From NCBI RefSeq assembly GCF_003952505.1, contig NZ_CP034450.1, positions 620,001 through 684,000 on the forward strand: a stretch of 64,000 nucleotides of DNA, given 5' to 3'. Numbering within the stretch: position 1 is the stretch's first letter; every line of letters begins with the position of its first letter. Shown here one piece after another: positions 10,094 to 22,752 of the stretch. Under the pieces are notes generated by a model. The model saw nothing but the letters and a program-made list of their open reading frames with translations, searched no databases and was not told where the DNA came from. Origin of the DNA: Mesorhizobium sp. M4B.F.Ca.ET.058.02.1.1 (lineage in GTDB: Bacteria > Pseudomonadota > Alphaproteobacteria > Rhizobiales > Rhizobiaceae). The position numbers were made by a program, and so were the translations under genes.

Positions 10094-10180
10094 GTCCTCC
10101 TTCGCCAAGGCTTCGGAGGACACCCCTTCGTCTAACGATCTTCGGGTGGCCTGCTACCCGAAGCTCGAAGAGCGAAGGGT
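10094..10180. repeat. Compound palindromic region next to the left att site
   Basis: Several nested inverted repeats occur: TCCTCC...GGAGGA around 10094-10120, outer arms ACCCCTTCG (10122-10130) and CGAAGGGT (10173-10180), and a perfect inner hairpin CTTCGGGT (10140-10147) / ACCCGAAG (10156-10163). It lies directly 3' of the original tRNA-Thr gene on the minus strand, so the inner hairpin may have been that gene's terminator. The mosaic look also fits a rhizobial intergenic palindromic element. Confidence 0.45.
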
Positions 10181-10224
10181 GGTGCCCCCGGACGGGATCG
10201 AACCGCCGACCTTCGGTTTACAAA
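10180..10224 (-). pseudogene. 3' half of a tRNA-Thr(UGU) gene (att site at left end of the element)
   Basis: Read on the minus strand, this is tRNA positions 32-76: anticodon loop TTTGTAA, then ACCGA, variable loop AGGTC, T-arm GGCGG-TTCGATC-CCGTC, acceptor strand CGGGGGC, discriminator A and encoded CCA. No D-arm or 5' acceptor strand lies next to it; beyond the loop the sequence turns into unrelated AT-rich DNA. The missing half is found at 22390-22427. The two halves share TTACAAA (10218-10224 and 22390-22396) and add up to a normal 76-nt tRNA, so an insertion has split the gene. Confidence 0.9.
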
Positions 10225-10358
10225 TTTTGTGCCAGAATACCCCGAAGCATATCGTTCCCTAACTTTGTTCCAATCAACATATTGATTTTGATTAATTTAT
10301 CGAGGTTTTTGGCCGATTGAGCATCGGTTTGCATAACGTTGTCGAACGTACTATAACG

Positions 10359-10386
10359 TACCCCGGATTACCCCTGAGGTTACCCC
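10359..10386 (-). promoter_or_regulatory. Three phased GGGGTA half-sites upstream of the integrase (arm-type or operator site)
   Basis: TACCCC occurs at 10359, 10369 and 10381, i.e. GGGGTA on the minus strand with 10- and 12-bp phasing. The same two-half-site arrangement recurs at 15125-15160, 17597-17617, 20288-20308 and 22308-22328. Here it sits 14 bp before the integrase start codon and about 140 bp from the att core. It could be an arm-type recombinase site, a repressor operator, or both. Confidence 0.5.
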
Positions 10387-10399
10387 GGAGCCAAAACCG

Positions 10400-11677
10400 A
10401 TGCTTAATTCGATCCCCGGCCAGTTCAAAAAGGCTGCCGCGTTTATCAACAATCTGACGCCGGCAACCACGCGGCAAGAAATACCGGACAGCACCCAAGC
10501 CGGCCTCTATCTGGTGATGCAGCCAAGCGGGTCTTTGTCATGGGCTGTGCGAACGAAGATTGATGGCAAGGCCGCGAAAGTGACCATTGGACGCTATGAC
10601 GAAGTCGGCCGCGACGACCGGGCCGGCAACATCATATCGGCAACACAAGTGCTGAACGTCACCCAGGCACGGGCAGCGGCCGAAAAGGTGATCGCGGACG
10701 CAAAGCGCGGCAATGACCCCCGGCAACAGAAGATCGACAAGACGAGTGTGGGCGCTTGGTTCGATGAATTTATCAAGACGGCCAGGACGACCGGTTTCAA
10801 GGGTAGGGCGGTTAAGGCAACCACAGCGGACGAATATGAGCGCATAATCGCGACCAATATCAAACCGCACTGGAAACACGTTAGCGACATTCGGACGCTC
10901 GATTACCGGGATGTCGAAAAGCTCTTGGCGAAGCTGACGCCGGGCGCGAGGCGGAACGCCTTTGCGGTGCTATCCGCATTCTTCCGCTGGAAGCCCGTTG
11001 CGCGCGTCATGGGCCGGAACATCATCGAGCTTGCCGAAGCGCCGGCCAAGCCGACCAGCCGCGACCGCGTGTTGTCCCATGAGGAAATCAAGAAGGTTTG
11101 GAACGCTTCCGAAAAGTGCGGCTATCCGTTCGGCCCCATGACACAATTGCTATTGTTGACCGGGCAACGCCGCGACGAAATCGCCGATCTGAAATGGTCC
11201 GAAATTGCCGATGACGCGATCACGCTTGAAGCGGCTCGTACGAAGAATTCACGACCGCATGTCGTGCCGCTCTCGCCGCTTGCAAAGACGATAATTGAAG
11301 CGTTGCCCAAGATGCACGACGCGGACGGCAATTTGTCGGAATACGTGTTCACGACAACCGCAACGACGCCGTTCAGCGGATTCAGCAATGGCAAGAAAGC
11401 GCTCGATAAGCATTGCGGCGAACCGGCGTTGCCCGATTGGCATTTGCACGATCTGCGGCGCACATGCGCGACCGAGCTAGCCAAGCTTGGAATTAAGCAG
11501 GAAGTGACCGAAGCAATCCTAAATCACAAAACCGGTAAAGTGTCCGGTGTTGCCGCAATCTATAACCGGTACGATTACCAAGATGAAAAGCGCGACGCTT
11601 TGGAACAATGGGCAACCCGCATTCAGGCAATCACCGGGAACAACGTTACGATTCTCCGGAAAGGATCGACCATATGA
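10400..11677 (+). CDS. Tyrosine recombinase (integrase) of the tRNA-Thr element
   Basis: The 425-residue protein has an N-terminal arm-binding region with a 'GLYLVMQPSGSLSWAVRTKIDGK...TIGRYDEV' segment like that of DUF4102-type integrases, a SAM-like core-binding region (about residues 115-210), and a catalytic domain with all active-site residues: Arg in TGQRRDE (257/258), Lys282 in RTKNSRPHVVPLS, H350-x-x-R353 in HLHDLRRT, His376 in ILNHKTG, and nucleophile Tyr388 in AAIYNRYDY. It should cut within the 7-bp core TTACAAA. ATG 10400 has GGAG nine bases upstream. Its stop overlaps the next start (ATGA), so the following membrane peptide is translationally coupled to it. Confidence 0.93.
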   Translation: MLNSIPGQFKKAAAFINNLTPATTRQEIPDSTQAGLYLVMQPSGSLSWAVRTKIDGKAAKVTIGRYDEVGRDDRAGNIISATQVLNVTQARAAAEKVIADAKRGNDPRQQKIDKTSVGAWFDEFIKTARTTGFKGRAVKATTADEYERIIATNIKPHWKHVSDIRTLDYRDVEKLLAKLTPGARRNAFAVLSAFFRWKPVARVMGRNIIELAEAPAKPTSRDRVLSHEEIKKVWNASEKCGYPFGPMTQLLLLTGQRRDEIADLKWSEIADDAITLEAARTKNSRPHVVPLSPLAKTIIEALPKMHDADGNLSEYVFTTTATTPFSGFSNGKKALDKHCGEPALPDWHLHDLRRTCATELAKLGIKQEVTEAILNHKTGKVSGVAAIYNRYDYQDEKRDALEQWATRIQAITGNNVTILRKGSTI

Positions 11678-11868
11678 TTGATAAGAAGAGGATAAGGAAG
11701 CGGACGAACGAAATAGACGATAACGGATACATTGAACCAAACCCGAACGGGCAGAAATATCCGAGCGACTTCAAGGAGCCGAACCCTATAACTCCCGAGC
11801 ATGTTCAGGGCTTCGTATGTGGAGTGTTGTTTATGATTTTTCTAATTGCCGTTTACGTGCGGATTTGA
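11674..11868 (+). CDS. 64-residue C-terminally anchored membrane peptide
   Basis: The start codon overlaps the integrase stop (ATGA at 11674-11677). The product has a basic N-terminus (MIDKKRIRKR), a polar Asn/Pro-rich middle and one hydrophobic span at the extreme C-terminus (VQGFVCGVLFMIFLIAVYV, about residues 44-62). The architecture is that of a small tail-anchored protein. No family recognised. The coupling suggests it is made whenever the integrase is made. Confidence 0.6.
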   Translation: MIDKKRIRKRTNEIDDNGYIEPNPNGQKYPSDFKEPNPITPEHVQGFVCGVLFMIFLIAVYVRI

Positions 11869-11959
11869 GAGTGACTCTAGTATGAGAGACTTATCCACAA
11901 GGCAGTTATAGCTAGTTATTGACCACTAGACTTTGTTATGGTTGGTTGCCCATGCCAAA

Positions 11960-12038
11960 GGTTGGACGACCGATGGTGTGAGGGGCTGGACGGCCCAAGG
12001 CCGCGAGGAAGACGCGGCGATAGGGGTTGGACGACCCG
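11960..12038 (+). repeat. Three copies of a 14-bp GGYTGGACGRCCNR motif
   Basis: GGTTGGACGACCGA (11960-11973), GGCTGGACGGCCCA (11984-11997) and GGTTGGACGACCCG (12025-12038) lie in the same orientation, upstream of the AlpA-like gene. Spacings are 24 and 41 bp. They could be operator or excisionase-binding sites. A chance origin in GC-rich DNA is possible but three 14-bp near-copies in 80 bp is unusual. Confidence 0.45.
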
Positions 12039-12118
12039 AAGCCGGGGAACGGCCCGGCGCTCTGCGATGGATCGCAAGAGCCAGGCCCCAGCCAATTCCC
12101 ACTCACAAGGTCTGTCCC

Positions 12119-12340
12119 ATGTCTTCCCTAGAACTTATCCCCGCGCCCGTAGTGCGCGCCGCTTGCGGCAATATCACCGATATGACCCTTTGGCGCTGGC
12201 TGAACGGTTCATTCGACCCCCGAACGGGAAGATTGACCCCGCCCGTTCCCGGCTTTCCCCGACCTCGCAAAATTAACAACCGCCGTTATTGGAGCCGTGC
12301 CGAGATCGAGCGATTTATGGCCTCGCGCCCGCTCGGCTAA
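12119..12340 (+). CDS. AlpA-like small helix-turn-helix protein (excisionase/regulator)
   Basis: The 73-residue product contains DMTLWRWLNGS followed by GFPRPRKINNRRYWSRAEIE and RFMASR, the classic layout of AlpA/MerR-type small winged-helix proteins: a recognition helix, then 'FP.P..I..RRYW...EI..W'. Such proteins activate integrase or act as excisionases in integrative elements. I chose ATG 12119, since the upstream in-frame extension (to 11933) is Pro/Arg/Gly-rich shadow sequence. It lies between the integrase pair and the replication gene, with a set of three 14-bp repeats upstream that could be its own binding sites. Confidence 0.75.
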   Translation: MSSLELIPAPVVRAACGNITDMTLWRWLNGSFDPRTGRLTPPVPGFPRPRKINNRRYWSRAEIERFMASRPLG

Positions 12341-12501
12341 TTCCCCTAAGGCTTACCCGCGCCGCTCTTGGCGGGCCTGAGTTTTCAGCAAGTGTTTGAG
12401 TGAACAACAATTTTCAACATCAGAGCAGCGGTTAGTTGATCCGGCGCTCAAAGAAAAGCCGGCGAGCGCTGCAACGCTGCCGGCCTTGAAGGACAATATC
12501 A

Positions 12502-14874
12502 GTGACCGCCCACATACCACCGGCCGCGTTGTCGGGCAACGCCGCTGTCCCCGAAGCGCTCAAAGCTTACCGACAGTTCGTTGTGTGGCGGCTTGTGCAG
12601 CGACCCGGAGAACCGAAGCCAGCCAAGCTCCCGTTCGGTCCGAAGACCGGGCAGGCCGCTAGCTCGACCGATTCAAGCACCTGGACAGATTTTGACACCG
12701 CCGCGCGCGCCGTCGCTGCCGGGAGTTTCAACGGCATCGGATTTGTGTTCACCGCCAACGACCCGTTTGCCTTTATCGACCTTGACGATTGCCGCGACCC
12801 GGCCACGGGGGAATGGTCGCCGCATGCTCTCTTTATCGCCCAATCCATCTTTCCGAACGGATCGTGGGAAACATCGCAGAGCGGCCAAGGACTGCACGGG
12901 ATTGTCCGCGTGAGCAACAAAGCAGCATTTGCGAACAAGTCTCGCAAATGGGCAAATGGCGGCGCCCGCTTCGAATGCTACACCGAAGGCCGCTTTGTAG
13001 CGTTCGGCCATTGCGATTGGTCACAGCTCGATCTGGAGATTGATTGCGGTGCAGTGTTAGCCGAATGGGTTCCGGATCGGCAATCCGGTTATCCCGGCGT
13101 GGTCGAATGGGAAGACGTGGCGCGCTTGGATTACGCCGGTCCCGCCGACGATGACGAACTAGTCAGACGCGCAATTGAGAGCAAGGGCGGCCCCGCCGTT
13201 ATTCTTGGCAAAGCGCCATCGTTTGCAGCCCTTTGGAACGGCGATGTCGCCGAGCTTGGCGGGTTTTTTCCGGATAGCGGCAAGCGTCCATTCGACCACA
13301 GCGCCGCCGAGCTTGCTCTTGCCAATGCATTAGCTTGGTGGACCGGCTGCAATCCTGTGCGCATCGAACGATTGATGAGCCGAGCGCCGCTCTGCCAACG
13401 CGCCAAATGGTATACGCGCGGCGACTACCGGGCGCTCACCATCACGTCCGCCATTGCCGGCCCGAACCGCAAATATTTCGCAGCCAAGGACCGGCGCGAA
13501 CAGCAGTTGCAGGCCGATATGGTGATTGGCGACGATCTGCCAACGCCGCCGCTACCGTCAATCATGACCCTGGACCAAATGTTGCGAGACTTGGTCCATA
13601 TCGGCTTCGGTAGCCAAATCGTACACCGAGTCAGCAAGACGATCCGGAGTAAGGAAGATGCGGCAAGCGAATATGCCGCGAGCGTAACCGAAGTTGACAC
13701 AGGCAAGGTCGATGAAGACTGCAATCCGGTCACAAAGCAACTCCAGACGCTGGTTTTGTGGCGTCGTGACCGGAACCGTACATCGGTCGATCAAATAACG
13801 TGGCAACCTGACAAGCCGGAAATCTGCCAAGCACTCGACGCCAACGGCAGCGGCCAACGCGCGTACAATCTTTGGACGCCACCGCGATTGAGGGCCGCGC
13901 CGTCAAATTGGCTGGAATGGGCGAGACCGTTCATCGATCATGTCGCCTATCTTGTGCCGATTGAGGTCGAACGTGTGCGGTTCCTGCAATGGCTGGCGCA
14001 TATCGTCCAGAGACCGGGCGAGCTTCCGCATACTTGCTATTTGATGATTGCGACCACGACCGGCATTGGTCGCGGTACGCTGGCGTCAATCCTCACCCGA
14101 GCTTTTCGCGGATACGTCGCCGCGAATGCCGATGTTGGCATGCTGTTGAACAAGACTTTCAACGGGCGATTGTCCCAAAAATTGCTCGCAACGGTTGACG
14201 AAATACGCGAGGGCGACGGCGCACAACGTTATCGGCAGCAGGAAAATTTTAAGAGCGCCGTCACCGAGGAAGAACGCCACGTCAATCCCAAATTCGGCAG
14301 GCAATATGTCGAGAAAAACTGTTGCCGTTGGTTGCTATTCTCAAACCATTTGGACGCGTTGCCTTTCGATAATAACGACCGACGGGTGATCGTTATTGAA
14401 AACCCGACCACACCGGCACAGCCGGCTTGGTTCGAATATTTGCACGGCATCATCAACAACCCGACGTTCGTCGCCAGCGTCCAGTACTATCTCGCAACGC
14501 TCGATATCAGCACGTTCAAGCCGGGCGAGCGCGCGCCGATGAACGCGGCCAAGGCAAAAGCGGTTGCGAGCATGGAAAGCATCGCTGACAGGGCCGCACG
14601 GCAATTTGCAGCCGCGTGGCCCGACGATCTGGCGACGATAGCCGACCTACGCGAATTCCTTGGCGATGACGCTCCAGGCAACAGCGGTGCGATGCGCCAT
14701 GTGGTTGAGCGCGCCGGTATGAGGACCGCGCACCGCATCAAAATAGCGGGCAGGTTGGAGACGCTTTTGATCGTGCGCGGCCCACTTGACGGAAATGACC
14801 TAACCAAAGCCGACAACGCCGCCATTGTTGACAGGATCGGCGCTGCCCAAGCGAAATTTCGGTTCACAGCGTGA
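12502..14874 (+). CDS. Primase-polymerase / superfamily 3-type helicase (NrS-1 polymerase-like)
   Basis: This 790-residue protein combines two parts. The N-terminal third looks like an archaeo-eukaryotic primase/PrimPol domain: FNGIGFVFTANDPFAFIDLDD (acidic DLDD at 93-96) and ARFECYTEGRFVAFGH around 155-170. The C-terminal part is a virus-type ATPase (DUF5906-like): GIGRGTL at about 520-527 as Walker A, LLATVDEI near 563 as Walker B, and LLFSNHLDALPFDNNDRR around 612. The Walker A lysine is replaced by arginine (GIGRGT). Start is GTG 12502 with GAAGGACA upstream. It probably primes and unwinds element DNA. A perfect long inverted repeat begins 15 bp after its stop. Confidence 0.82.
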   Translation: MTAHIPPAALSGNAAVPEALKAYRQFVVWRLVQRPGEPKPAKLPFGPKTGQAASSTDSSTWTDFDTAARAVAAGSFNGIGFVFTANDPFAFIDLDDCRDPATGEWSPHALFIAQSIFPNGSWETSQSGQGLHGIVRVSNKAAFANKSRKWANGGARFECYTEGRFVAFGHCDWSQLDLEIDCGAVLAEWVPDRQSGYPGVVEWEDVARLDYAGPADDDELVRRAIESKGGPAVILGKAPSFAALWNGDVAELGGFFPDSGKRPFDHSAAELALANALAWWTGCNPVRIERLMSRAPLCQRAKWYTRGDYRALTITSAIAGPNRKYFAAKDRREQQLQADMVIGDDLPTPPLPSIMTLDQMLRDLVHIGFGSQIVHRVSKTIRSKEDAASEYAASVTEVDTGKVDEDCNPVTKQLQTLVLWRRDRNRTSVDQITWQPDKPEICQALDANGSGQRAYNLWTPPRLRAAPSNWLEWARPFIDHVAYLVPIEVERVRFLQWLAHIVQRPGELPHTCYLMIATTTGIGRGTLASILTRAFRGYVAANADVGMLLNKTFNGRLSQKLLATVDEIREGDGAQRYRQQENFKSAVTEEERHVNPKFGRQYVEKNCCRWLLFSNHLDALPFDNNDRRVIVIENPTTPAQPAWFEYLHGIINNPTFVASVQYYLATLDISTFKPGERAPMNAAKAKAVASMESIADRAARQFAAAWPDDLATIADLREFLGDDAPGNSGAMRHVVERAGMRTAHRIKIAGRLETLLIVRGPLDGNDLTKADNAAIVDRIGAAQAKFRFTA

Positions 14875-14888
14875 CCGCCACCCCGGTT

Positions 14889-15017
14889 CGCCAAGGATCA
14901 CCAAGTTCGCCACATCTGAAAAGGCCGGAAATAGAAAATAGAACTGATGTTACTCAACGTTATACTGAAAATATTTCTGTGTCTTTTTAGAAGTGGCGAA
15001 CTTGGTGATCCTTGGCG
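14889..15017. repeat. Perfect 25-bp inverted repeat flanking 79 bp of AT-rich DNA (candidate replication origin)
   Basis: The arm at 14889-14913, starting CGCCAAGGATCACC, is the exact reverse complement of 14993-15017. Inward extension keeps partial pairing for about nine more bases. The 79-bp centre is AT-rich (for example GAAAATATTTC) in an otherwise GC-rich region. It starts 15 bp after the primase/helicase stop and is followed by phased CGGGTA-type motifs at 15101-15160. Inverted repeat plus AT-rich core plus iteron-like motifs beside a replication gene suggests an origin; a MITE or a long-stem terminator are alternatives. Confidence 0.6.
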
Positions 15018-15100
15018 CACCGCGCCGTCGCCCGCGTGGGTGTAAGGAGCAGCGGTTAACTAGACCGATACAGACCCGCCAAAACTGCAACGAAAACAAC

Positions 15101-15160
15101 CGGTAAATTATCCAGTCAGCACAACGGGTAGTCACCCGGGTAAAAACAGGGGAAACCAAC
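15101..15160 (+). repeat. Iteron-like 12-bp-phased motifs
   Basis: CGGTAAATTATC (15101), then CGGGTAGTCACC (15125), CGGGTAAAAACA (15137) and GGGGAAACCAAC (15149) keep a 12-bp register. The last copy also supplies the ribosome-binding site of the gene at 15162. The motif resembles the GGGGTAAA half-sites found at four other places in the element. Confidence 0.45.
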
Positions 15161-15161
15161 C

Positions 15162-15728
15162 ATGGAACTAACGCTGAAATTCTCTGCCACGCCGGAAGGA
15201 ATCAAGACCGCCCGCATGTGCCTCGCATTCGACCGTGCAATGGCGTGGTTCAGGCGGCGCGATTGGTCCAGGCCATCCAATCGTCCGGAGCTCAACTATC
15301 AGGACGACCAGTTGTACATGGTCTCATATTGGTCCGACGATATCCGCGTCTCGATCTGGCGCGACCACACGACCGGCTCGCTTAATTTCATTCTGGACGC
15401 AGTGGACCGCGTCGGCAAGCATGTGGCAAAAATAGGCGAGTTTGGCGCGCTTGGCCGGGACGAATGGTTCATCGCTCACCTAGACGAACAAATCGTTCAT
15501 TCAATCGATCAAAATATGGACCATCGCTTTCGCCAATCGAGCGCGGCTTTCGTTGCGGAATTTTTGTACAGTTCAACCACGCCGTGGCTAAATCATCCGG
15601 TCGAGACTAAGAACAAATTAGGACCCGTTACGCCGGAGATAATCAACGCTCTGCGGAGAGTTGGTTATCGCTCGACATCGGAAACCACATGGGCGGCACC
15701 GGGCGAAAATATCGGAAAAAGTCATTAA
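15162..15728 (+). CDS. Element-encoded protein of unknown function (188 aa)
   Basis: The ATG is preceded by AGGGGAAACCAACC, a usable ribosome-binding site. The product is soluble-looking, with MELTLKFSATPEGIKTARMC, a Trp/Arg-rich segment (MAWFRRRDWSRPSNRPELNY), and YMVSYWSDDIRVSIWRD, which looks like alternating beta strands. I recognise no family. It sits immediately after the candidate origin. Codon use is less GC-biased than in the flanking chromosome, in keeping with acquired DNA. Confidence 0.6.
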   Translation: MELTLKFSATPEGIKTARMCLAFDRAMAWFRRRDWSRPSNRPELNYQDDQLYMVSYWSDDIRVSIWRDHTTGSLNFILDAVDRVGKHVAKIGEFGALGRDEWFIAHLDEQIVHSIDQNMDHRFRQSSAAFVAEFLYSSTTPWLNHPVETKNKLGPVTPEIINALRRVGYRSTSETTWAAPGENIGKSH

Positions 15729-15834
15729 AATTGCCAACTGTGGATAACTAAATAGCGATATTTGCTTGTGGCGTCTGCCGTACTTATTGCTTTCCCTTAA
15801 ATACTACTCACTCTAAGCGGAAGGAATACAGACT

Positions 15835-16656
15835 ATGGCGATCAAGAATTTTTCTCGTGTGCCCGGCGAGACTCGCGGCTTTCTTGCAAATTGGACGGCT
15901 AGCAGCGGAGGGTCATTTTCCTTCTTCTGGCCGGTTGCCTACGCGAACGTATCCGGCGATCTCGACAACGCTGCTACGGCGTTAGGCAACGGCGTCATGG
16001 CCGCTGCCGCGAGTATCGAAGCGGCGGACAAGCAATTCAAGCAGGCCGGCGACGTGGCTCGCGTAGGGGCAGAGGCCTGTTCGAGATATTGCGGTCCAGG
16101 CTTCAGGGCAGTGAGACAGGCCGCTATCAGCGAGCGACAAACCACGGCGGCGGCTCGCTACAGCTTGAGACAGCCCGTAGAGGCGAGCGCTACCCCGAAC
16201 TCGACCGCCGTGGATGCGATCCAGCGCGCCGAAATCCGGCAAACGCTTTTCCGCGAATTCGGAACCGACCTAGGTGGCGCTTTCGAATGGGTGATGCAGT
16301 CGCAAGGGCTCGATGTGCTCCAAGCAATTGTTCCGGCAATCGACCGGACGATTTTCGTCAAGGACAAGCAATTGTCCGATTTGCTCGCCGAAGAATTCGC
16401 GATCCGGAAGACGATTAAATTCATGCCCAACGAACCGTCCGACGATTTCGCGACGCCGGCCGATCCCCTCAAAAGCAAGATGGACGATTCATCGATCCGC
16501 CTACTAGCCAAGGCAAAGGTTGGTCGAATCAAGCTCCGTGAGGAAGCGGTAGACGCTGCAAGCAAGCTGTTGGTCTCGACAATAAATTTCACGGCGCAAT
16601 CCAGCAATTTGACCGACACAGAGGCGTTGAACCTATTGTTTGGTAAATCCGCCTAG
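15835..16656 (+). CDS. Element-encoded protein of unknown function (273 aa)
   Basis: A strong ribosome-binding site (GCGGAAGGAATACAGACT) precedes the ATG. The product has an N-terminal Phe/Ser-rich stretch (SSGGSFSFFWPVAYANVSGD), then an Ala-rich, mainly helical region (about residues 45-130) and a helical C-terminal domain ending LTDTEALNLLFGKSA. There is no signal peptide or membrane span. No family recognised. Its stop codon lies inside the first of two tandem hairpins. Confidence 0.6.
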   Translation: MAIKNFSRVPGETRGFLANWTASSGGSFSFFWPVAYANVSGDLDNAATALGNGVMAAAASIEAADKQFKQAGDVARVGAEACSRYCGPGFRAVRQAAISERQTTAAARYSLRQPVEASATPNSTAVDAIQRAEIRQTLFREFGTDLGGAFEWVMQSQGLDVLQAIVPAIDRTIFVKDKQLSDLLAEEFAIRKTIKFMPNEPSDDFATPADPLKSKMDDSSIRLLAKAKVGRIKLREEAVDAASKLLVSTINFTAQSSNLTDTEALNLLFGKSA

Positions 16657-16720
16657 CAATTTACCGATATTGCTAGGCGTTCCGGGCCGGATTGATTTCC
16701 TGATTGTCAATCCGGCCCGG
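16651..16720 (+). terminator. Two tandem perfect hairpins
   Basis: GCCTAGCAAT (16651-16660) pairs perfectly with ATTGCTAGGC (16669-16678), overlapping the stop of the upstream gene. CCGGGCCGGATTGA (16682-16695) pairs perfectly with TCAATCCGGCCCGG (16707-16720). Only a weak T-run follows (GTTTCT). They probably end or attenuate the transcript before the gene at 16746. Confidence 0.6.
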
Positions 16721-16745
16721 GTTTCTCCGTAAAGCGACAAAAACA

Positions 16746-17207
16746 ATGACTGAAAATTTTCTTCCGCTCCCCCAATCCGGTCGAATTGACGATAACGTCC
16801 ATAGATTATCGGATCGCGACCACAATGGGAGATTTGCGGTCGGTAAATCTACAGGCCGTCCGGTTGGTGCGGTCGGTAAAGTAAGCCGCGATTTGCTTAA
16901 ACAGGTAAAAGCGCTCGGGCCTCGCGCAATCGACAAGCTGACCGAGGCATTGGACGCAAATCAGGAATGGGCGGTTAAATTCATTTTGCAGCATTGCTTG
17001 CCGAAGGGTAGGGCGCTGGAATTCGAAGAAATGACCGTTGATGATTTGGTCGCCGCTGCCAAATCGTCCGATATTTCTCTCGAGGAATTCCGGGCCGGCG
17101 TCGATGCGATGGCAAAGGTTCACGACATCCAAGAACTCGAATTGTTGCGCGAGAGAATCGACCAATTGGAGCAAATGCTCAATGTCAAAGCGCGCACTGG
17201 AACGTAA
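16746..17207 (+). CDS. DUF5681-like mobile-element protein (153 aa)
   Basis: The N-terminal part reads RDHNGRFAVGKSTGRPVGAV, resembling the 'GRF.PGQSGNPAGRPKGA' motif of DUF5681-type proteins found near phage terminase and mobile-element genes. The middle is helical (LLKQVKALGPRAIDKLTEAL then QEWAVKFILQHCLPKGRALE), and the C-terminus is a likely coiled coil (IQELELLRERIDQLEQMLNV). The start is ATG 16746. Such proteins have been likened to small terminase subunits, but the similarity is loose and no large terminase is present here. The next gene overlaps its end by 26 nt. Confidence 0.6.
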   Translation: MTENFLPLPQSGRIDDNVHRLSDRDHNGRFAVGKSTGRPVGAVGKVSRDLLKQVKALGPRAIDKLTEALDANQEWAVKFILQHCLPKGRALEFEEMTVDDLVAAAKSSDISLEEFRAGVDAMAKVHDIQELELLRERIDQLEQMLNVKARTGT

Positions 17208-17478
17208 ACGTATCGCCGAACTCGAAGCGCGCTTGCAGGTTCGCGGCGGTCGGCAACTATTGCCCGGTCGCGACGACACCGGACTTTTGACCGCGCTAGA
17301 AATTACAATCGGCATGATACCCGATCCGGCCGATAAATACCGCTGGGCGCTAGGACCCGACGGACAAGCGTTAGTCGCCAGACTGTTCCAGGCGACCACG
17401 GCGGCAACTGTGGATCGGATAATTCCGACCGATACGCCGGAGGTTGCACAAGCAAAATACCGGGATTGGATCGGATGA
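17182..17478 (+). CDS. Element-encoded protein of unknown function (98 aa)
   Basis: This gene starts at ATG 17182 inside the end of the preceding gene (26-nt overlap), so the two are probably co-translated. The product begins with a basic helix (MSKRALERKRIAELEARLQV), then GLLTALEITIGMIPDPADKY and RWALGPDGQALVARLFQATT. It looks soluble and folded, with no signal or membrane segment. No family recognised. Confidence 0.55.
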   Translation: MSKRALERKRIAELEARLQVRGGRQLLPGRDDTGLLTALEITIGMIPDPADKYRWALGPDGQALVARLFQATTAATVDRIIPTDTPEVAQAKYRDWIG

Positions 17479-17864
17479 TTCCGGCCACACCGTATGAGCA
17501 GCGGTTGTCCGAATAGACGCCAGAGCAGAGGATCGGCGACAAATCCCCAACGAATTCAAAGCCCCTCGATCCCCATCGACCCAAACGGGAAGGGCGGGGG
17601 TATAGGCGGGGGTAAATTTGATTTCCGCTGGTCAATTCCTTGGCTGGTTGGTGAATTTCCAGCCCTACAGGTCCGCCTCGGTCGCAGCGCTACGGGGCGC
17701 CTATTCACCCTTCGTTCACTATATTAGCGCAAGCTGATAAGCGGACATGATGGGTACAGCGTACATGCCTAAAGCCCTAACGCCGATACAAACCTCAGCG
17801 CTAGGGCTTATTAACCTCCAGAGATACGGGCCTGTAGCCATTCCCCTGCGGCTGGGTAAGTGCT
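17479..17864. other. Non-coding stretch with a bipartite motif and a hairpin
   Basis: No supported gene. It contains the GGGGTATA / GGGGTAAAT pair at 17597-17617 and, at 17770-17808, an imperfect hairpin whose arms are AAGCCCTAACGC and GCGCTAGGGCTT (one mismatch). The hairpin lies between convergent gene groups and could be a terminator. Confidence 0.5.
17597..17617 (+). promoter_or_regulatory. Bipartite GGGGTATA...GGGGTAAAT motif
   Basis: Two half-sites, GGGGTATA (17597) and GGGGTAAAT (17609), are spaced 12 bp start to start. The same pair occurs on the minus strand at 22308-22328 next to the right att site, differing only in the four-base spacer. Confidence 0.5.
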
Positions 17865-18044
17865 TCAATGGTTGGCCTTGCCGGGATGTCCTGCCGCTGC
17901 CATTTGCTTGTTGAACGCTGCGGCCTCTTGCTCCGTATCGAATGGACGGGCGGTAGCCGTTCCATCGGGAGCGATGACTATGGCCAGGTACGGCAGGCCA
18001 TTCGCTGGCGGGTGGTAGACGGCATAGATCGTGCTGCGCTTCAT
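17865..18044 (-). CDS. 59-residue small protein of unknown function
   Basis: Reading the minus strand from ATG 18044, a GAGGGA ribosome-binding site lies just upstream. The product is MKRSTIYAVYHPPANGLPYL, then a strand-rich AIVIAPDGTATARPFDTEQE and a helical AAAFNKQMAAAGHPGKANH ending. It reads like a small beta-beta-alpha protein ('Y.V..P..G.PYLAVVI.PDG...AR.F.T..EA..FN') found in rhizobial accessory DNA. No function known. Confidence 0.6.
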   Translation of the reverse strand: MKRSTIYAVYHPPANGLPYLAIVIAPDGTATARPFDTEQEAAAFNKQMAAAGHPGKANH

Positions 18045-18076
18045 TCCCTCATGCTACCGGGACTCAAAGACCTCGC

Positions 18077-18280
18077 CTAGCCTTGCGTTGAATTCAAAAG
18101 CCGATCCCGGTGAGCGACGTGCAGAAGCTGCATCTGCTCGAACAGGGTCAAAAGGTCTTCGGCTAAGTCTGCCCTGAAGCCCTTATGGTGGAAGTCGGCA
18201 ACAATCTCCCGCTGGCGCGCAATATGTCGCTCGCCCAAAAGCACATGCTGCTCCAGCATCGCTAGAACGGCTTCCCTCAT
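18077..18280 (-). CDS. 67-residue helical protein, paralogous to 18684-18884
   Basis: The product contains LLGERHIARQREIVADFHHK, then DLAEDLLTLFEQMQLLHVAH, i.e. two amphipathic helices. The 'GERH.ARQR..I......G...DLA..LL..FE..Q..H..H...LL' pattern is shared with the 66-residue protein at 18684-18884. Its ATG follows the stop of the upstream gene by 2 bp, so the pair is co-translated. Small proteins of this type recur as hypotheticals in Bradyrhizobium and Mesorhizobium; no activity is known. Confidence 0.65.
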   Translation of the reverse strand: MREAVLAMLEQHVLLGERHIARQREIVADFHHKGFRADLAEDLLTLFEQMQLLHVAHRDRLLNSTQG

Positions 18281-18282
18281 CG

Positions 18283-18564
18283 CTAAGAGGTATCAGATTT
18301 CTCGCGCTTCTTATAGGGACCGCGCTTGCCTGGCTTCGGCGGCAACAGGGCCGCCGCGCCGCTTTCACCTTCAGAGACGGCAGACGTTTCAAACATCGTC
18401 CGTACTGGTTTCTGCAACTGCGTTTCAGACAACTCGAGCAAGCTGTAGCACGATGCCATCCGTGTGGCGGAGCGCCCTATTGAACGCTCTGTCGCGGCAA
18501 CGACCCGGAGAGCCTTGAGATAGCGCTTCCGGGTTCCGAACAACGTGGCGGCCATCATCTGCAC
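18283..18564 (-). CDS. Element-encoded protein of unknown function (93 aa)
   Basis: The frame starts at 18564 and ends at a TAG two bases before the start of the next gene on the same strand. The product begins MQMMAATLFGTRKRYLKALR, has a helical middle, and ends with a basic KPGKRGPYKKREKSDTS tail suited to nucleic-acid contact. No family recognised. The main support is its tight junction with the recognisable small gene downstream. Confidence 0.45.
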   Translation of the reverse strand: MQMMAATLFGTRKRYLKALRVVAATERSIGRSATRMASCYSLLELSETQLQKPVRTMFETSAVSEGESGAAALLPPKPGKRGPYKKREKSDTS

Positions 18565-18683
18565 CCCTGCTTTTCATAGGCACATCGGTCACCGGCCTAA
18601 AATAGGAGCCAAATTTTTGAAATTCAAATTGAGACTTTGTGAGCCGGACTCCGATGCGCAAGACGCGCAATGTCGAACACTCA

Positions 18684-18884
18684 TCAGTTGAATGTGAGTA
18701 GGAAGTCCAGGTGCATTTCAAGTTCGCGTTGCACCGCCTCGAAGTCTTGCAATAGCCCTCGGGCCAGGTCGGTCCGGTGGCCGTCGAGCGTCATCTCTTC
18801 GATGAGTTTGCGCTGGCGAGCAATGCGTGCCCTGCCTTCGCGAACGTGGCGTTCTCCCTTTTCCACCTTGGTCTCGGTGTTCAT
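18684..18884 (-). CDS. 66-residue helical protein, paralogous to 18077-18280
   Basis: The product reads MNTETKVEKGERHVREGRAR, then IARQRKLIEEMTLDGHRTDL and ARGLLQDFEAVQRELEMHLD. It shares the GERH, IARQR, G...DLA..LL..FE and H..LL positions with the protein at 18077-18280, so the two look like diverged paralogs within one element. Both are charged helical hairpins with no membrane segment. No strong ribosome-binding site is visible. Confidence 0.6.
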   Translation of the reverse strand: MNTETKVEKGERHVREGRARIARQRKLIEEMTLDGHRTDLARGLLQDFEAVQRELEMHLDFLLTFN

Positions 18885-18961
18885 GCTGAGACAAGGCGGC
18901 TGATGGCCTTTAGGTTCCGCCGCCCCAACGGAACATTTGCTCGCCCCTAGAGTTGGTCGGC

Positions 18962-19135
18962 ATGGACACTTGGACTTCTCTCGATATCAGCGCGGCAGCC
19001 CTGAAACGGGCGCAAAAGCTTCGCGACGAAAATGACCGCTTCAGGAAGCAGGCGGCTGCGGAGCTGGCCAGGGCTCGTGAACTGATTTCCGATATTGCCG
19101 AGCTTCTGGATGCTCGCGGCCTAAGGCGCCGTTGA
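18962..19135 (+). CDS. Possible 57-residue coiled-coil peptide
   Basis: From ATG 18962 the frame encodes MDTWTSLDISAAALKRAQKL, then a charged helix (DENDRFRKQAAAELARAREL) and ISDIAELLDARGLRRR. The composition suits a real helical peptide, but the ribosome-binding site is weak and an overlapping minus-strand frame exists, so support is moderate at best. Confidence 0.4.
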   Translation: MDTWTSLDISAAALKRAQKLRDENDRFRKQAAAELARARELISDIAELLDARGLRRR

Positions 19136-19199
19136 ACCGCGCGGGAAGTCGCCGGCAAGGAGGTGGCGTCCATCCGGTGGAAACGGGAGGTCCGGTGAA

Positions 19200-19601
19200 C
19201 TAGGTTAGTTCGATCAAATGCCTGATGAGGTCATCGGGCATAATGGGTTTCACAAGGCGCCGAACGCCCGAAAATTCGCTTGGGACGATGGTCCGGTCAT
19301 ACCCGGTGACGAATATGAACGGGATGCCGTGCGCCTTCAATTCGGCCGCGACGGCGAAAGTCGCGGCCGCACCAAGCTTTATGTCAACCGTCGCGCATTC
19401 GACGTCCTCGCTGGCGATTTTCCTCGATGCATCTTCAGGATTAGCCACCGGGCCAATTACCCTGCCGCCAGCTTCCCTAATCGCCTCTTCGAGTTCGGCT
19501 GCGATCAGATACTCGTCCTCGACGACAAGGACTCGGCGTCCCTGCAGTGGCGCTGCCGGCTTGAACTGGCCTGAATTATTGGGAACGACAGAACACAACA
19601 T
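19200..19601 (-). CDS. Single-domain response regulator receiver protein
   Basis: The 133-residue protein is a CheY-like receiver: the acidic pair in VLVVEDEYLIAAELEEAIRE, phospho-acceptor Asp in CATVDIKLG, the conserved Thr in FIFVTGYD and Lys in RRLVKPIMPDDL are all present. There is no output domain, as in the stand-alone receivers common in rhizobia. The ATG is preceded by AAAGGGGGGCGTCG. No histidine kinase is encoded in the element, so it must respond to a host kinase or compete for one. It lies in the cargo region of the integrated element. Confidence 0.85.
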   Translation of the reverse strand: MLCSVVPNNSGQFKPAAPLQGRRVLVVEDEYLIAAELEEAIREAGGRVIGPVANPEDASRKIASEDVECATVDIKLGAAATFAVAAELKAHGIPFIFVTGYDRTIVPSEFSGVRRLVKPIMPDDLIRHLIELT

Positions 19602-19883
19602 CGACGCCCCCCTTTGGGTTGTCGGGTCATGAATAGAGCTTACACCTGTTGGGGGATTTGCGAGTCATTTGGCGAAAATCGAATAGCCCGGCCGCTCAGC
19701 CGCGTGACAGAGCGACACGATCGGTGCCGGGCTATTCAGTAGGCCCGCTGCGGGGGTTGGGTTGGCAACGGGGATTGATGACGTGCGTCGTGACAGGCCA
19801 CACAGTTCCCGACAAAGTTAGGCTGTTTGCCAACGATATGATCCCCGAAACAGCAGCCGCTCAAGGCTGGAGACGGGCGAGCC
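19602..19883. other. Non-coding stretch with a large inverted repeat
   Basis: No supported gene. GAATAGCCCGGC (19681-19692) is repeated as its exact reverse complement at 19726-19737, with a 33-nt loop, upstream of the receiver gene. It might be a structured RNA, a terminator or an operator. Confidence 0.4.
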
Positions 19884-20084
19884 TTACGGTTCCTCCCGCA
19901 CGATCCAGTCTAGCATTTCCGGGTCGACGGTCTCGTTGCCTGACATGATGCGGACGATGTGCTTTACGGCGGGGCGCCGTTGCTTTTCGGGCGGATTGTC
20001 CTCAGCAACCCACCGCAGGAAGGCTTGGCGGATCACGTCACATTCAAAGGCGGAAATGGAATCGCGTGTGCGGGCTTTGGCCAT
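19884..20084 (-). CDS. 66-residue protein of unknown function
   Basis: The product reads MAKARTRDSISAFECDVIRQ, then AFLRWVAEDNPPEKQRRPAV and KHIVRIMSGNETVDPEMLDW. It is a compact helical, soluble protein with a conserved-looking 'AFL.W..E..P....R..AV..IV' core, typical of small accessory-region hypotheticals in Rhizobiales. No strong ribosome-binding site and no known function. Confidence 0.5.
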   Translation of the reverse strand: MAKARTRDSISAFECDVIRQAFLRWVAEDNPPEKQRRPAVKHIVRIMSGNETVDPEMLDWIVREEP

Positions 20085-20424
20085 GGGGCCAAATGCGGCT
20101 TAGGCCGATAGGTTCCAACGGGATACGAAAAGCCCGCCGCCAGGAGGACTCGGCGACGGCTTTCCTGAGGACCCAAGAGCGGCGCTGAGCAGCAAACATT
20201 CAAACAGGCGCTGCGGCATGACTGAGGAAGGCGGAGTGCTGGGTTTGTAGGGTCCACCGGGCACCAATGCGCCTGCTACCGGGCCTAGGGGTAAAGATGT
20301 GGGTAAATTCGCACCCTGACTACGCCATGGAAGGCCCATGCCTAGCTTGTAGATTGAATTCGTGGCACCAAATTGAGCCGCAACGCCACATCGCGCGCTG
20401 CGGAATGCCAAAGGGGCCAAATCG
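20085..20424. other. Non-coding stretch upstream of the three-gene cassette
   Basis: About 340 bp without a supported gene. It should hold the promoter of the cassette at 20425-22194 and contains a bipartite GGGGTAAA / TGGGTAAAT motif at 20288-20308. I could not place -35/-10 boxes confidently. Confidence 0.45.
20288..20308 (+). promoter_or_regulatory. Bipartite GGGGTAAA...GGGTAAAT motif
   Basis: Half-sites GGGGTAAA (20288) and TGGGTAAAT (20300) are spaced 12 bp, matching the pairs at 17597, 22308 and 10366. It lies about 120 bp upstream of the TIGR04255-type cassette and could be its operator. Confidence 0.45.
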
Positions 20425-21162
20425 GTGAAATCCTACAGCCGTCCGCCAATAGTCGAAGCCGCTGTCGAGTTCGTGGCAAACGTCGCCATATCATATGAAG
20501 ACCTCCAAGCGATTTCGAATAAGGTCGCCGGCGACTACAAACATCAAACCATAGACAAGAACATCGAGGTCCGCATCGATACGCTTGGCGGCATTCCAAC
20601 GGTGCACTCCGAGCCGTCGCCAGATCGGTTCCGCAGAACATCCGACGATCAGGCGGACATCGCCATGTTCGGTCACAACTCGATGATCGTAGCGCGCTTA
20701 GCCCCCTACCTCGGCTGGGAGTATTTGAGTGAACGTGTCGCAAGGAATTGGCGCATTTGGTCGAAAGGTCCAACGGGCAAAAATATCACTCGGGTGGGTA
20801 TGCGCTTTATCAATCGAATAGATATTCCTACAGCTGGGCTGGAACATTTCGACATCCGCGACTACCTCAAGCTCCAACCTCTCGTTCCGAGAATCGCTGA
20901 GAAGCCGATGTCGGGGTATTTAGTTCAGGCCTCCATGCCTACCGCCAACCCAAATTGGGATTGCAACATAGCCTCAACGACTGTCTTGGACCCACCGTTG
21001 ATAAATCATACGTCTATTTTGTTGGATATTGACGTGTATCGAACCCGCGACATACCATCAAAAGCTGCAGAAATTCTGCCGATTCTGGAAGAAGCCCGAG
21101 CGCTGAAGAATACCATTTTTGAGCTCTGCATAACCGACAAAGCGCGAGAATTGTTTCAATGA
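20425..21162 (+). CDS. TIGR04255-type protein, first gene of a three-gene cassette
   Basis: The 245-residue protein begins MKSYSRPPIVEAAVEFVANV and contains RNWRIWSKGPTGKNITRVGM followed by RFINRIDIP, the features of the sporadically distributed TIGR04255 family ('y..pPl.Ea..e' start and 'R.glRyiNri.ip' core). Members occur patchily in accessory DNA, often beside other unknown genes, and none has a firmly established activity that I know of. The start is GTG 20425 with AAAGGGG upstream. Its TGA overlaps the next ATG, so the second gene is translationally coupled. The position directly inside the right att site is typical of cargo. Confidence 0.75.
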   Translation: MKSYSRPPIVEAAVEFVANVAISYEDLQAISNKVAGDYKHQTIDKNIEVRIDTLGGIPTVHSEPSPDRFRRTSDDQADIAMFGHNSMIVARLAPYLGWEYLSERVARNWRIWSKGPTGKNITRVGMRFINRIDIPTAGLEHFDIRDYLKLQPLVPRIAEKPMSGYLVQASMPTANPNWDCNIASTTVLDPPLINHTSILLDIDVYRTRDIPSKAAEILPILEEARALKNTIFELCITDKARELFQ

Positions 21163-21767
21163 CCACATCTCTTAATAGTACGGTCGCCGCACCCAACACT
21201 GCATCCGAAATCCCGGCACGGGGGGCCGCAGGTGCATACTCGACGCGCATGAACGACGCCGTTTCTAATGCATACAAGCGGACATTCGAACCCCTGGGCG
21301 TAGTCAAGTCGGAAGGAATTGATGGGCACCTCAATACGCTTCTCGCAAACTCAAAGGCGATTTTCAAAGTCACGACCAATACGGTCGCTATGCATCGTTT
21401 GTCGGCGGATTGGCGAGAACGGCTATTTAAGCAAATCGACAGCCTCCTAGACGCCGATGAATGGGACGAAAATGACAAGCCAATCGTCTCCGGCTCGTCC
21501 CAGACCTTTATAAGAATGCTGATTTTCCTCAACGCTCGACGACCGGGACTTGGCGCAACGAGCGATGGAAGTCTCATTGCGACTTGGACAACCGGAGAAA
21601 ACCGCCTTACGATCATTTGCAAGCCGAATGACTGGGTTCGCTGGGTCGTTTCAACGAGGACCGATTCTGGATGTGAAACTGCTGCGGGCCAGACCAAGAT
21701 TGCGCGTCTTCCCATTGTGCTAGAAGCTTACAGTCCGCAGCAGTGGTTTTCAGATGGCGGACGATAA
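21159..21767 (+). CDS. Cassette protein 2, unknown function (202 aa)
   Basis: ATG 21159 overlaps the stop of the TIGR04255-type gene (ATGA). The product has a Ser/Thr/Ala-rich N-terminus, a helical part (LNTLLANSKAIFKVTTNTVA, WRERLFKQIDSLLD) and a C-terminal strand-rich region (GSLIATWTTGENRLTIICKP, NDWVRWVVSTR). No signal peptide or membrane span. No family recognised. The ATGA and 14-nt overlaps on either side indicate stoichiometric co-expression with its neighbours. Confidence 0.65.
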   Translation: MTTSLNSTVAAPNTASEIPARGAAGAYSTRMNDAVSNAYKRTFEPLGVVKSEGIDGHLNTLLANSKAIFKVTTNTVAMHRLSADWRERLFKQIDSLLDADEWDENDKPIVSGSSQTFIRMLIFLNARRPGLGATSDGSLIATWTTGENRLTIICKPNDWVRWVVSTRTDSGCETAAGQTKIARLPIVLEAYSPQQWFSDGGR

Positions 21768-22194
21768 GATTGAGGAAGACCATGATCTACTTAGGTACGT
21801 TCCATTCTCGAAGCTGCGCAAGGCTGATGGTACCGACGATGTGATCGGGGTGTTGCCGGAGGCGTTCGCACTTCGGGAGGCAGAGCCCTATCTTTCGGCA
21901 ACTTGGATTGAATATTTTGCGTCTCAGCCAGATCCCGTTGCCTCAGCTGTGCGCGCGGTCAGAAATAGCGCACTCAAGGTGACAACGAAGAGCGGGTTCA
22001 CCAAGGGCAAACTGAGCGAAATTCGTTCAGCATGCAAAGCCCGTGGCCATCAGATTCGAATAGTCCATGAACGGGAGCCGGACAACGACGCCCACGTAGC
22101 AGTTCGTCGCTATCCCGCCGACGATTTGGAGCTTTTTGAATCGCTTGCCACCGACGCGTGGTCCGACTGGTTTCTAAACTCTTCGATTCCGTAG
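21754..22194 (+). CDS. Cassette protein 3, unknown function (146 aa)
   Basis: The start codon lies 14 nt inside the preceding gene. The product is acidic at the N-terminus (MADDKIEEDHDLLRYVPFSK), with LPEAFALREAEPYLSATWIE and YFASQPDPVASAVRAVRNSA in the middle and a basic segment (FTKGKLSEIRSACKARGHQI) before VAVRRYPADDLELFESLATD. It is soluble and unrelated to any family I recognise. It ends 35 bp before the replacement tRNA, with which it converges. Confidence 0.65.
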   Translation: MADDKIEEDHDLLRYVPFSKLRKADGTDDVIGVLPEAFALREAEPYLSATWIEYFASQPDPVASAVRAVRNSALKVTTKSGFTKGKLSEIRSACKARGHQIRIVHEREPDNDAHVAVRRYPADDLELFESLATDAWSDWFLNSSIP

Positions 22195-22229
22195 TTTCGC
22201 AATCGTGTCGCTCGGTACGCGGTGGTGGA

Positions 22230-22305
22230 TGGTGCCGCCTGAGGGACTCGAACCCCCGACCAATAGTTTACAAAACTACTGCTCTACCATCTGAGCTAAG
22301 GCGGC
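22230..22305 (-). tRNA. tRNA-Thr(UGU), complete replacement copy carried by the element
   Basis: Read on the minus strand this folds as a full tRNA: acceptor GCCGCCT / AGGCGGC, D-arm GCTC/GAGC, anticodon stem GTAGT / ACTAT with loop TTTGTAA (anticodon TGT), T-arm GGGGG-TTCGAGT-CCCTC, discriminator A and encoded CCA. It differs from the split host tRNA-Thr at many positions but has the same anticodon loop and therefore the same TTACAAA core (22268-22274). It lies 84 bp downstream of the stranded host 5' half, on the same strand, so the host tRNA promoter can drive it. Confidence 0.95.
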
Positions 22306-22307
22306 AC

Positions 22308-22328
22308 ATTTACCCCTACGTATACCCC
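22308..22328 (-). promoter_or_regulatory. Bipartite GGGGTATA...GGGGTAAAT motif near the right att site
   Basis: On the minus strand GGGGTATA and GGGGTAAAT are spaced 12 bp, 62 bp from the att core. Together with the cluster at 10359-10386 this puts the motif near both ends of the element in the same orientation, as expected for arm-type integrase sites. It lies between the 5' tRNA half and the replacement tRNA. Confidence 0.5.
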
Positions 22329-22389
22329 TGAAACGCGGTTTTGAAAAACATTGCGGCTTTCCAGCACCTTAGACGATTGATCCAGCGAA

Positions 22390-22427
22390 TTACAAAACCG
22401 CTGCTCTACCAGCTGAGCTACAAGGGC
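22390..22427 (-). pseudogene. 5' half of the split tRNA-Thr(UGU) gene (att site at right end)
   Basis: On the minus strand this is tRNA positions 1-38: acceptor GCCCTTG, D-arm GCTC-AGCTGGTA-GAGC, anticodon 5' stem GCGGT and loop TTTGTAA, after which the tRNA stops and element sequence begins. It pairs with the half at 10180-10224: GCGGT with ACCGA (four of five pairs) and GCCCTTG with CGGGGGC (five Watson-Crick, two G-U). It keeps the host promoter but can no longer make a tRNA. Confidence 0.9.
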
Positions 22428-22440
22428 ATGGCGCTCCGGT

Positions 22441-22468
22441 AGCATATTCCATGCGCCAGTAAAGACAA
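22441..22468 (-). promoter_or_regulatory. Host tRNA-Thr promoter, now driving the replacement tRNA
   Basis: On the minus strand TTGTCT (22468-22463), a 16-bp spacer and TATGCT (22446-22441) lie just upstream of the tRNA 5' half, with the -10 ending 13 bp before tRNA position 1. Transcription should run through the stranded half and reach the intact tRNA-Thr at 22305. Confidence 0.55.
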
Positions 22469-22584
22469 AACTCCGTTCGCGACAGCTGATTGACCCGGCG
22501 AGGGCGGCCCCGCGCCATCCTGAAAACGGCAGGGCGGCTTCCTATATCAGGGCGAGATGCAATTACCTGGTTGAGGGTTTTCGC

Positions 22585-22752
22585 ATGATCCGGCTCGTCA
22601 TCATCTTCCCGCTTGTCGTGGTGGCCTGGCTTCTCGTGGTCAAGCTCGTCAGCGATTTGAAGAAAGCCAGCATCGACTGGACCGGCGTCACCACCATCAT
22701 CGGCTTCATCGCGCTCGCCTTCTGGCTGCGCCATATCACCGGCATGGGATGA
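22585..22752 (+). CDS. 55-residue two-span membrane protein
   Basis: From ATG 22585 the product reads MIRLVIIFPLVVVAWLLVVK, a short charged linker (LVSDLKKASIDWTG) and a second hydrophobic span (TTIIGFIALAFWLRH). This is a convincing small inner-membrane protein of a type common in mesorhizobia. It follows the tRNA-Thr locus divergently. No function is known. Confidence 0.6.
   Translation: MIRLVIIFPLVVVAWLLVVKLVSDLKKASIDWTGVTTIIGFIALAFWLRHITGMG

Follow-up and report, generated by a model that had tools for sequence, protein, structure and literature searches.

The stretch of DNA analyzed here (the window) comprises 64,000 nucleotides of Mesorhizobium sp. M4B.F.Ca.ET.058.02.1.1 (NZ_CP034450.1, positions 620,001 to 684,000) and is part of a single 6.46-Mb contig. 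Within it, a tRNA-Thr(UGU) gene is broken in the anticodon loop, and its halves lie at the two ends of a 12.2-kb segment, mostly lower in GC content than its flanks, that carries a tyrosine integrase gene at one end and an intact tRNA-Thr(UGU) gene at the other. The features at the two ends, by position in the window, are as follows.

10180..10224, minus strand: 3′ half of the host tRNA-Thr(UGU), nucleotides 32-76 with the terminal CCA; lies displaced, next to the integrase, with the left core copy at 10218-10224
10225..10399, no strand: left attachment arm; TACCCC/TTACCCC repeats precede the start of the integrase (putative arm-type integrase sites)
10400..11677, plus strand: tyrosine integrase, 425 amino acids, with Phage_integrase and Arm-DNA-bind_3 domains
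22230..22305, minus strand: intact tRNA-Thr(UGU), the only one found in the genome (the substitute tRNA)
22306..22389, no strand: 84-bp spacer or right attachment arm, which contains GGGGTA repeats and separates the core from the substitute tRNA
22390..22427, minus strand: 5′ half of the host tRNA-Thr(UGU), nucleotides 1-38, with the right core copy at 22390-22396
22441..22470, minus strand: promoter-like block of the native gene (TTTTGTCT...TATGCT), near-invariant in 30 empty and 8 occupied loci

A split tRNA gene and its intact neighbor

The two halves have in common a 7-bp core, TTTGTAA (TTACAAA on the plus strand), and joined across it they form a 76-nt tRNA that ARAGORN calls as Thr(UGU). 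When each half is presented with its real flank, ARAGORN calls no tRNA, and neither end of the segment holds a rebuilt gene. The initial annotation of this DNA had described a host gene that is split and not rebuilt, with an intact tRNA-Thr(UGU) of different sequence 84 bp inside the right core, and these calls agree with it on each point.

A genome-wide search with the tRNA family returned 49 matches, among which ARAGORN identified one each of Thr(CGU), Thr(GGU) and Thr(UGU), the last being the copy on the element. Direct searches of the 6.46-Mb genome with the substitute tRNA or the joined native gene revealed no further intact Thr(UGU), and a second such gene elsewhere was rejected on these grounds. 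Under standard decoding rules the threonine codon ACA should be readable only by a UGU anticodon, and by these rules Thr(UGU) would be essential. The genome also contains two adjoining, odd tRNA-like genes (G000:C1:340119-340463), one called as Arg(GCG) and one without a full anticodon.

Empty sites, relatives and apparently exchangeable parts

We compared the locus across 146 genomes of the genus, the genome of the window being denoted G000. The joined 77-mer, searched with 3 mismatches allowed, is uninterrupted in 75 of the 146, always with 0 or 1 mismatch, and the halves are thus contiguous in uninterrupted relatives, as the initial annotation had anticipated. By DNA search, 135 of the 146 genomes contain a native-type gene of full length, 132 of them at an identity of at least 92% and 3 at 87% over nucleotides 1-70; ARAGORN calls these three as Thr(UGU). 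No native-type gene was found in the remaining 11 (G000, G033, G119, G029, G071, G105, G113, G058, G065, G122 and G132). In the first seven the native gene is broken and its two ends could both be followed to the site, and all seven carry an intact substitute tRNA there; in the other four, the searches detected no Thr(UGU) gene of native or substitute type. In all 30 fetched empty loci (of the 75), the right flank of the window adjoins the native gene. The left flank was matched in 4 of the 30, the only loci in which both flanks of the window were seen to be contiguous, which points to variability on the left of the locus. Four genomes (G006, G019, G054 and G145) contain extra partial copies, 48-51 nt long, from the 3′ end of the native tRNA. 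They resemble traces of ordinary rebuilding elements, and this target seems to be used by elements of both kinds.

Integrase DNA was matched in 16 of the 146 genomes including G000. Besides G000 there are four strong matches (G122, G033, G119 and G082), a partial match in G071 and ten short weak matches (E 4e-7 to 7.6e-4), which we left out of the count of relatives. Named carriers of integrase relatives are Mesorhizobium metallidurans STM 2683, Mesorhizobium sp. M00.F.Ca.ET.216.01.1.1 and an alphaproteobacterial metagenome bin. The complete order (3′ half, integrase, interior, tRNA-Thr(UGU), 84-bp spacer, 5′ half) is found in G033 and G119. G082 and G122 have the 3′ half and integrase on contigs that end short of the other element end: the G082 contig stops 5.2 kb on, with an intact native gene on another contig, and the G122 contig is 3.8 kb long. 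In a sample of the family, the integrase was found at E <= 1e-80 in 2 of 394 genomes, G000 and G308; the latter belongs to another genus and has the complete arrangement. Other elements with the same integrase and an internal tRNA-Thr, for which the initial annotation had called, therefore exist in G033, G119 and G308, and both non-rebuilding junctions recur in these three. The native-site cases of Mesorhizobium type all occupy one locus. Among 72,556 plasmid and 50,697 phage records the integrase had 5 and 2 matches, respectively, none above 35% identity, and a search of viral_contigs yielded one integrase pattern match and none confirmed.

The interior of the element in the window contains the following genes.

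11933..12340, plus strand: small protein, 135 amino acids, with relatives beside the integrase in G033, G082, G122 and G308
12502..14874, plus strand: primase-like replication protein, 790 amino acids (PHROG primases, DUF5906, NrS-1 polymerase HBD)
15162..17478, plus strand: open reading frames (ORFs) of 188, 273, 167 and 146 amino acids, the last two overlapping, no family matches
19200..19601, minus strand: response-regulator receiver domain protein, 133 amino acids
20425..22194, plus strand: three closely spaced ORFs, one for a protein of the TIGR04255 family (245 amino acids) and two without matches (202 and 146 amino acids)

Among ten window proteins compared, the integrase and the 135-amino-acid protein alone were found in G033, G119, G082 and G308. 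The G119 relative of the small protein has about 31-32% identity and lies more distant from the integrase, and the G033 relative has an HTH_17 match below threshold. The primase of the window was matched in G122 only; AAA_25-type replication proteins stand in its place in G033, G119 and G308, and the interior genes are mostly unrelated between elements. The cargo beside the substitute tRNA also differs from element to element (window 20425-22194; L151:9392-12897; L078:8488-12865). G308 encodes an OLD/AAA-type protein and G119 a PDC-M41 pair with a NucC-like nuclease, all of which resemble known or candidate defence genes; PADLOC gave no match for 4 window proteins. PHROGs scans of a subset of ORFs, 19 from the window and 10 from relatives, revealed no virion family, and no packaging or helper-hijacking gene was recognised in these ORFs, many of which match no family. 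Directly behind the primase gene is an inverted repeat (14884-15022) with 40-nt arms, 93% complementary and separated by 59 nt, which is possibly a replication or regulatory site.

Three types of tRNA are found behind the same attachment spacer: type A (G000, G033, G113, G105 and G119), type B (G029) and type C (G308, G071 and G104). The types agree with one another and with the native gene at 56-63 of 77 positions, and the type-C tRNAs of G308 and G071 agree at 73 of 77. The spacer is 79-93% identical to that of the window in G033, G119, G113, G105, G308, G029, G104 and G025, with no match in G071. Pairs of type-A genomes show 0-2 differences over the 77 positions of the tRNA versus 8-20 over the 83-85 positions of the spacer (pairwise Fisher tests, p <= 0.011 in 9 of 10 pairs, which are not independent). 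The three types behind one spacer suggest that tRNA cassettes may be exchangeable behind a fixed attachment arm, a feature that is new as far as our searches show. The best phage match to the substitute tRNA is 86.8% identical and comes from Rhizobium phages (454 phage records matched). One of the genome searches for substitute tRNAs matched 22 genomes, and the 82% match in 17 of the 22 was taken as Thr(CGU) from one that was checked.

Probable replacement of the host tRNA and competing explanations

We consider it very probable that the element makes good the loss of the tRNA gene it disrupts with its own tRNA of identical anticodon, a proposal of the initial annotation that is supported by the finding of no other Thr(UGU) in the genome. 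The tyrosine integrase would recombine the attachment site attP with the 7-bp core in the anticodon loop of the host tRNA-Thr(UGU). As attP lacks the tRNA 3′ half, integration would destroy the host gene, and the host would survive because the element supplies an intact tRNA with the same anticodon behind its right attachment arm, codirectional with the broken gene. Transcription may start, at least in part, at the promoter of the host gene and continue across the 5′ half and the spacer into the tRNA, which would then be processed in the usual way, and the substitute is presumably expressed and charged. In 8 of 8 native-site modules the substitute points the same way as the 5′ half, and the occupied loci that retain the near-invariant promoter-like block include four without an integrase. 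Small changes are present in the 5′ half in G113, G105 and G071. When the 5′ half, the spacer and the tRNA are folded as one RNA, the prediction pairs the 5′ half with spacer sequence and leaves the substitute with its acceptor stem and T arm; a generic terminator scan found nothing. A promoter within the spacer is a candidate alternative route. GGGGTA repeats number 6, 3, 5 and 4 in the 270 end bases of the G000, G033, G119 and G308 elements, respectively, versus 5, 2, 3 and 2 in the remaining 11-12 kb, and are likely arm-type integrase sites.

Because precise excision should recreate the native gene, the tRNA would protect the right end of the element from deletion, not the element from excision. 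This refines the suggestion in the initial annotation that the tRNA makes the element hard to lose by deletion of its right end. Loss of the left end or of the integrase would lock the substitute tRNA in. In four genomes (G029, G071, G105 and G113) the broken 5′ half and a substitute tRNA persist, and no complete integrase was found: G029, G105 and G113 have no integrase DNA match genome-wide and no integrase protein match in the fetched loci, and G071 has two short integrase pieces (61 and 22 residues). The native 3′ half was not found in the G029, G071 and G105 loci and is decayed in G113 (39 bp at 82%). The conserved neighboring TetR gene lies 2.1-4.4 kb from the tRNA in these four genomes versus 11.2-12.4 kb in whole elements. 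To judge from these remnants, the swap looks irreversible in all four, with the tRNA locked in. In G025 (L214:7380-10200), the native gene is intact and both substitute tRNAs are degenerate. The type-A tRNA of the older module, beside the native gene, is broken and partly inverted, and the second tRNA-like remnant has lost its UGU anticodon; the locus presents two successive elements at one tRNA gene. The locked-in state, the apparently reversed state of G025 and the use of a secondary site (G104, below) are each read from single genomes and may be taken as putative.

A broader model is possible, although we hold it to be somewhat less likely than even. The tRNA would be a promoter-trap cassette, silent in the circular form and turned on only after integration behind the host promoter; cassettes would be exchangeable behind the attachment arm, and decay of the left end would make the tRNA a permanent host gene, with repeated replacement of a core translation gene in these bacteria.

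Chance similarity of the two halves was discarded as an explanation because the joined sequence is uninterrupted in 75 of 146 genomes, and an assembly artefact because identical junctions recur in G033, G119 and G308, which makes it very unlikely. An ordinary tRNA-targeting island would rebuild its target at one end and carry the extra tRNA as incidental cargo, as many phages carry tRNA genes. Rebuilding does occur in the same integrase group: distant integrases (35-44% identity) are found in 8 of 397 genomes of the order besides G000, all eight beside a tRNA 3′ part, and among the four elements that were followed, two (39 and 44% identity; G666 and G580) rebuild the tRNA with 52-/54-bp repeats, the distal ends of G700 and G884 not being located. 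In the window, however, no tRNA is called at either junction, which excludes the classical form of such an island, the core is just 7 bp, the non-rebuilding junctions recur in three other genomes, and a search for a rebuilt native gene elsewhere in the genome found none. We therefore consider an ordinary island very improbable, and to judge from the two rebuilding cases the non-rebuilding mode is probably derived within this integrase group. Even harder to credit is the view that no mobile event occurred and that a local tandem tRNA duplication was followed by decay of the first copy and insertion of unrelated DNA. The single locus shared by the Mesorhizobium-type cases would fit it, but the integrase and paired attachment arms, the three tRNA types, the mostly unrelated interiors and the finding of the module in a second genus and, once, elsewhere on the chromosome do not.

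Several observations weigh against replacement by the element. The gene may be broken and the substitute superfluous if ACA is read by another threonine tRNA or by the product of a Thr(UGU) gene that escaped detection. Genes for Thr(CGU) and Thr(GGU) are present, and ACA codons are infrequent, with 38 among the 13,521 codons of those chosen window ORFs that lie outside the element. No gene for Ile(GAU) or Ala(UGC) appeared in the tRNA census, which may therefore be incomplete, a caveat that extends to the single Thr(UGU) count. In G058 (100% complete) and G132 (93%), Thr(CGU) alone was matched and no Thr(UGU) gene was detected; either divergent genes were missed or Thr(UGU) is not always needed. 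Completeness is lower for G065 (90%) and G122 (79%). G104 has an intact type-C substitute at a non-tRNA site and an intact native gene 198 kb away, so its substitute should be dispensable. The G104 tRNA is 99% identical to that of G308, and the site shares about 12 bp with the native core region. In G104 (L212:7469-16347), a MobA/MobL relaxase-helicase and a TIR-domain protein are encoded left of the module, and no left junction or close integrase was found for the copy, the nearest being a 24%-identical, 174-residue match directly outside the module. One of the 10 tRNA/spacer tests gave p = 0.059, and a generic promoter scan of both strands of 22200-22600 found no promoter, with no match at the promoter-like block. 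Against a superfluous tRNA, 24 of the 41 window ORFs selected for length and third-position GC content contain ACA, the tRNA is near-constant while the spacer diverges, in G113 and G105 as well, and an intact substitute is kept in 7 of 7 genus genomes in which the native gene is broken and its two ends were both located at this site. On balance a superfluous substitute is unlikely, and replacement of the host tRNA by the element remains our preferred explanation.

Relation to known elements

tRNA-dependent lysogeny has been shown experimentally in mycobacteriophages (Fionnbharth, LeBron, Gaia and others), where the phage tRNA is required and the targets are mostly tRNA-Lys(UUU); prophage Lj965 is also mentioned in this connection (PMC10865867). 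As far as the parts of that report compared here extend, the likeness includes a tyrosine integrase with an arm-binding domain, attB inside a tRNA gene, no rebuilding, an element-borne tRNA of the same isotype and a short core, 8-17 bp in the mycobacteriophages versus 7 bp here (PMC10865867). The mycobacteriophages are complete temperate phages of Actinobacteria, whereas the present element is an 11-12-kb element of Rhizobiales without recognised virion genes, at tRNA-Thr(UGU). It would work like tRNA-dependent lysogeny, and we do not class it as a lysogenic phage. In Sinorhizobium meliloti, a tRNA-Leu(UAG) gene loses its function and a tRNA encoded by the prophage takes its place (PMC11476347). 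That case shares with ours the rhizobial host, the inactivation of a tRNA gene by integration and the foreign-type isoacceptor carried by the element; it concerns prophages at tRNA-Leu(UAG) in two strains, and the series of decayed carriers seen here has no counterpart in the parts of the report compared (PMC11476347). In the portion consulted of a further report, phiLM21-like prophages do not replace the tRNA in this way (PMC12429752), and the part consulted of a survey of 41 Mesorhizobium genomes gives one 40-kb integrative and mobilizable element adjoining a tRNA-Thr gene (PMC8627217). The novelty implied by the initial annotation is lower, the principle having been published for phages.

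With ordinary tRNA-targeting islands as described for Islander, in the parts compared, the element shares the tyrosine integrase, the crossover in the anticodon loop and the displaced 3′ fragment at the integrase end; those islands rebuild the tRNA from an island-borne 3′ part, and the element here does not (PMC4383910). Island finders that rely on a rebuilt tRNA and a displaced fragment would not register such elements as usual. Phage satellites of the P4 and phage-inducible chromosomal island (PICI) types are of similar size and combine an integrase, a small regulator, a primase or helicase and variable cargo. The element resembles them in its integrase and replication gene and differs in that no packaging or helper-hijacking gene was recognised in the ORFs scanned. 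The literature on replacement tRNAs on islands, with subscription literature partly covered, yielded no description of this element type, which does not prove that none exists.

The arrangement extends a mechanism from actinobacterial phages to a small Rhizobiales element without recognised virion genes. The genomes compared form a series in which the element is integrated, apparently locked in or apparently reversed, and this makes the replacement of a supposedly vertical translation gene by a mobile element testable. The principle is known, and what is new, as far as our searches show, is the carrier without recognised virion genes, the Thr(UGU) target, the exchangeable cassettes and the apparent capture by the host.

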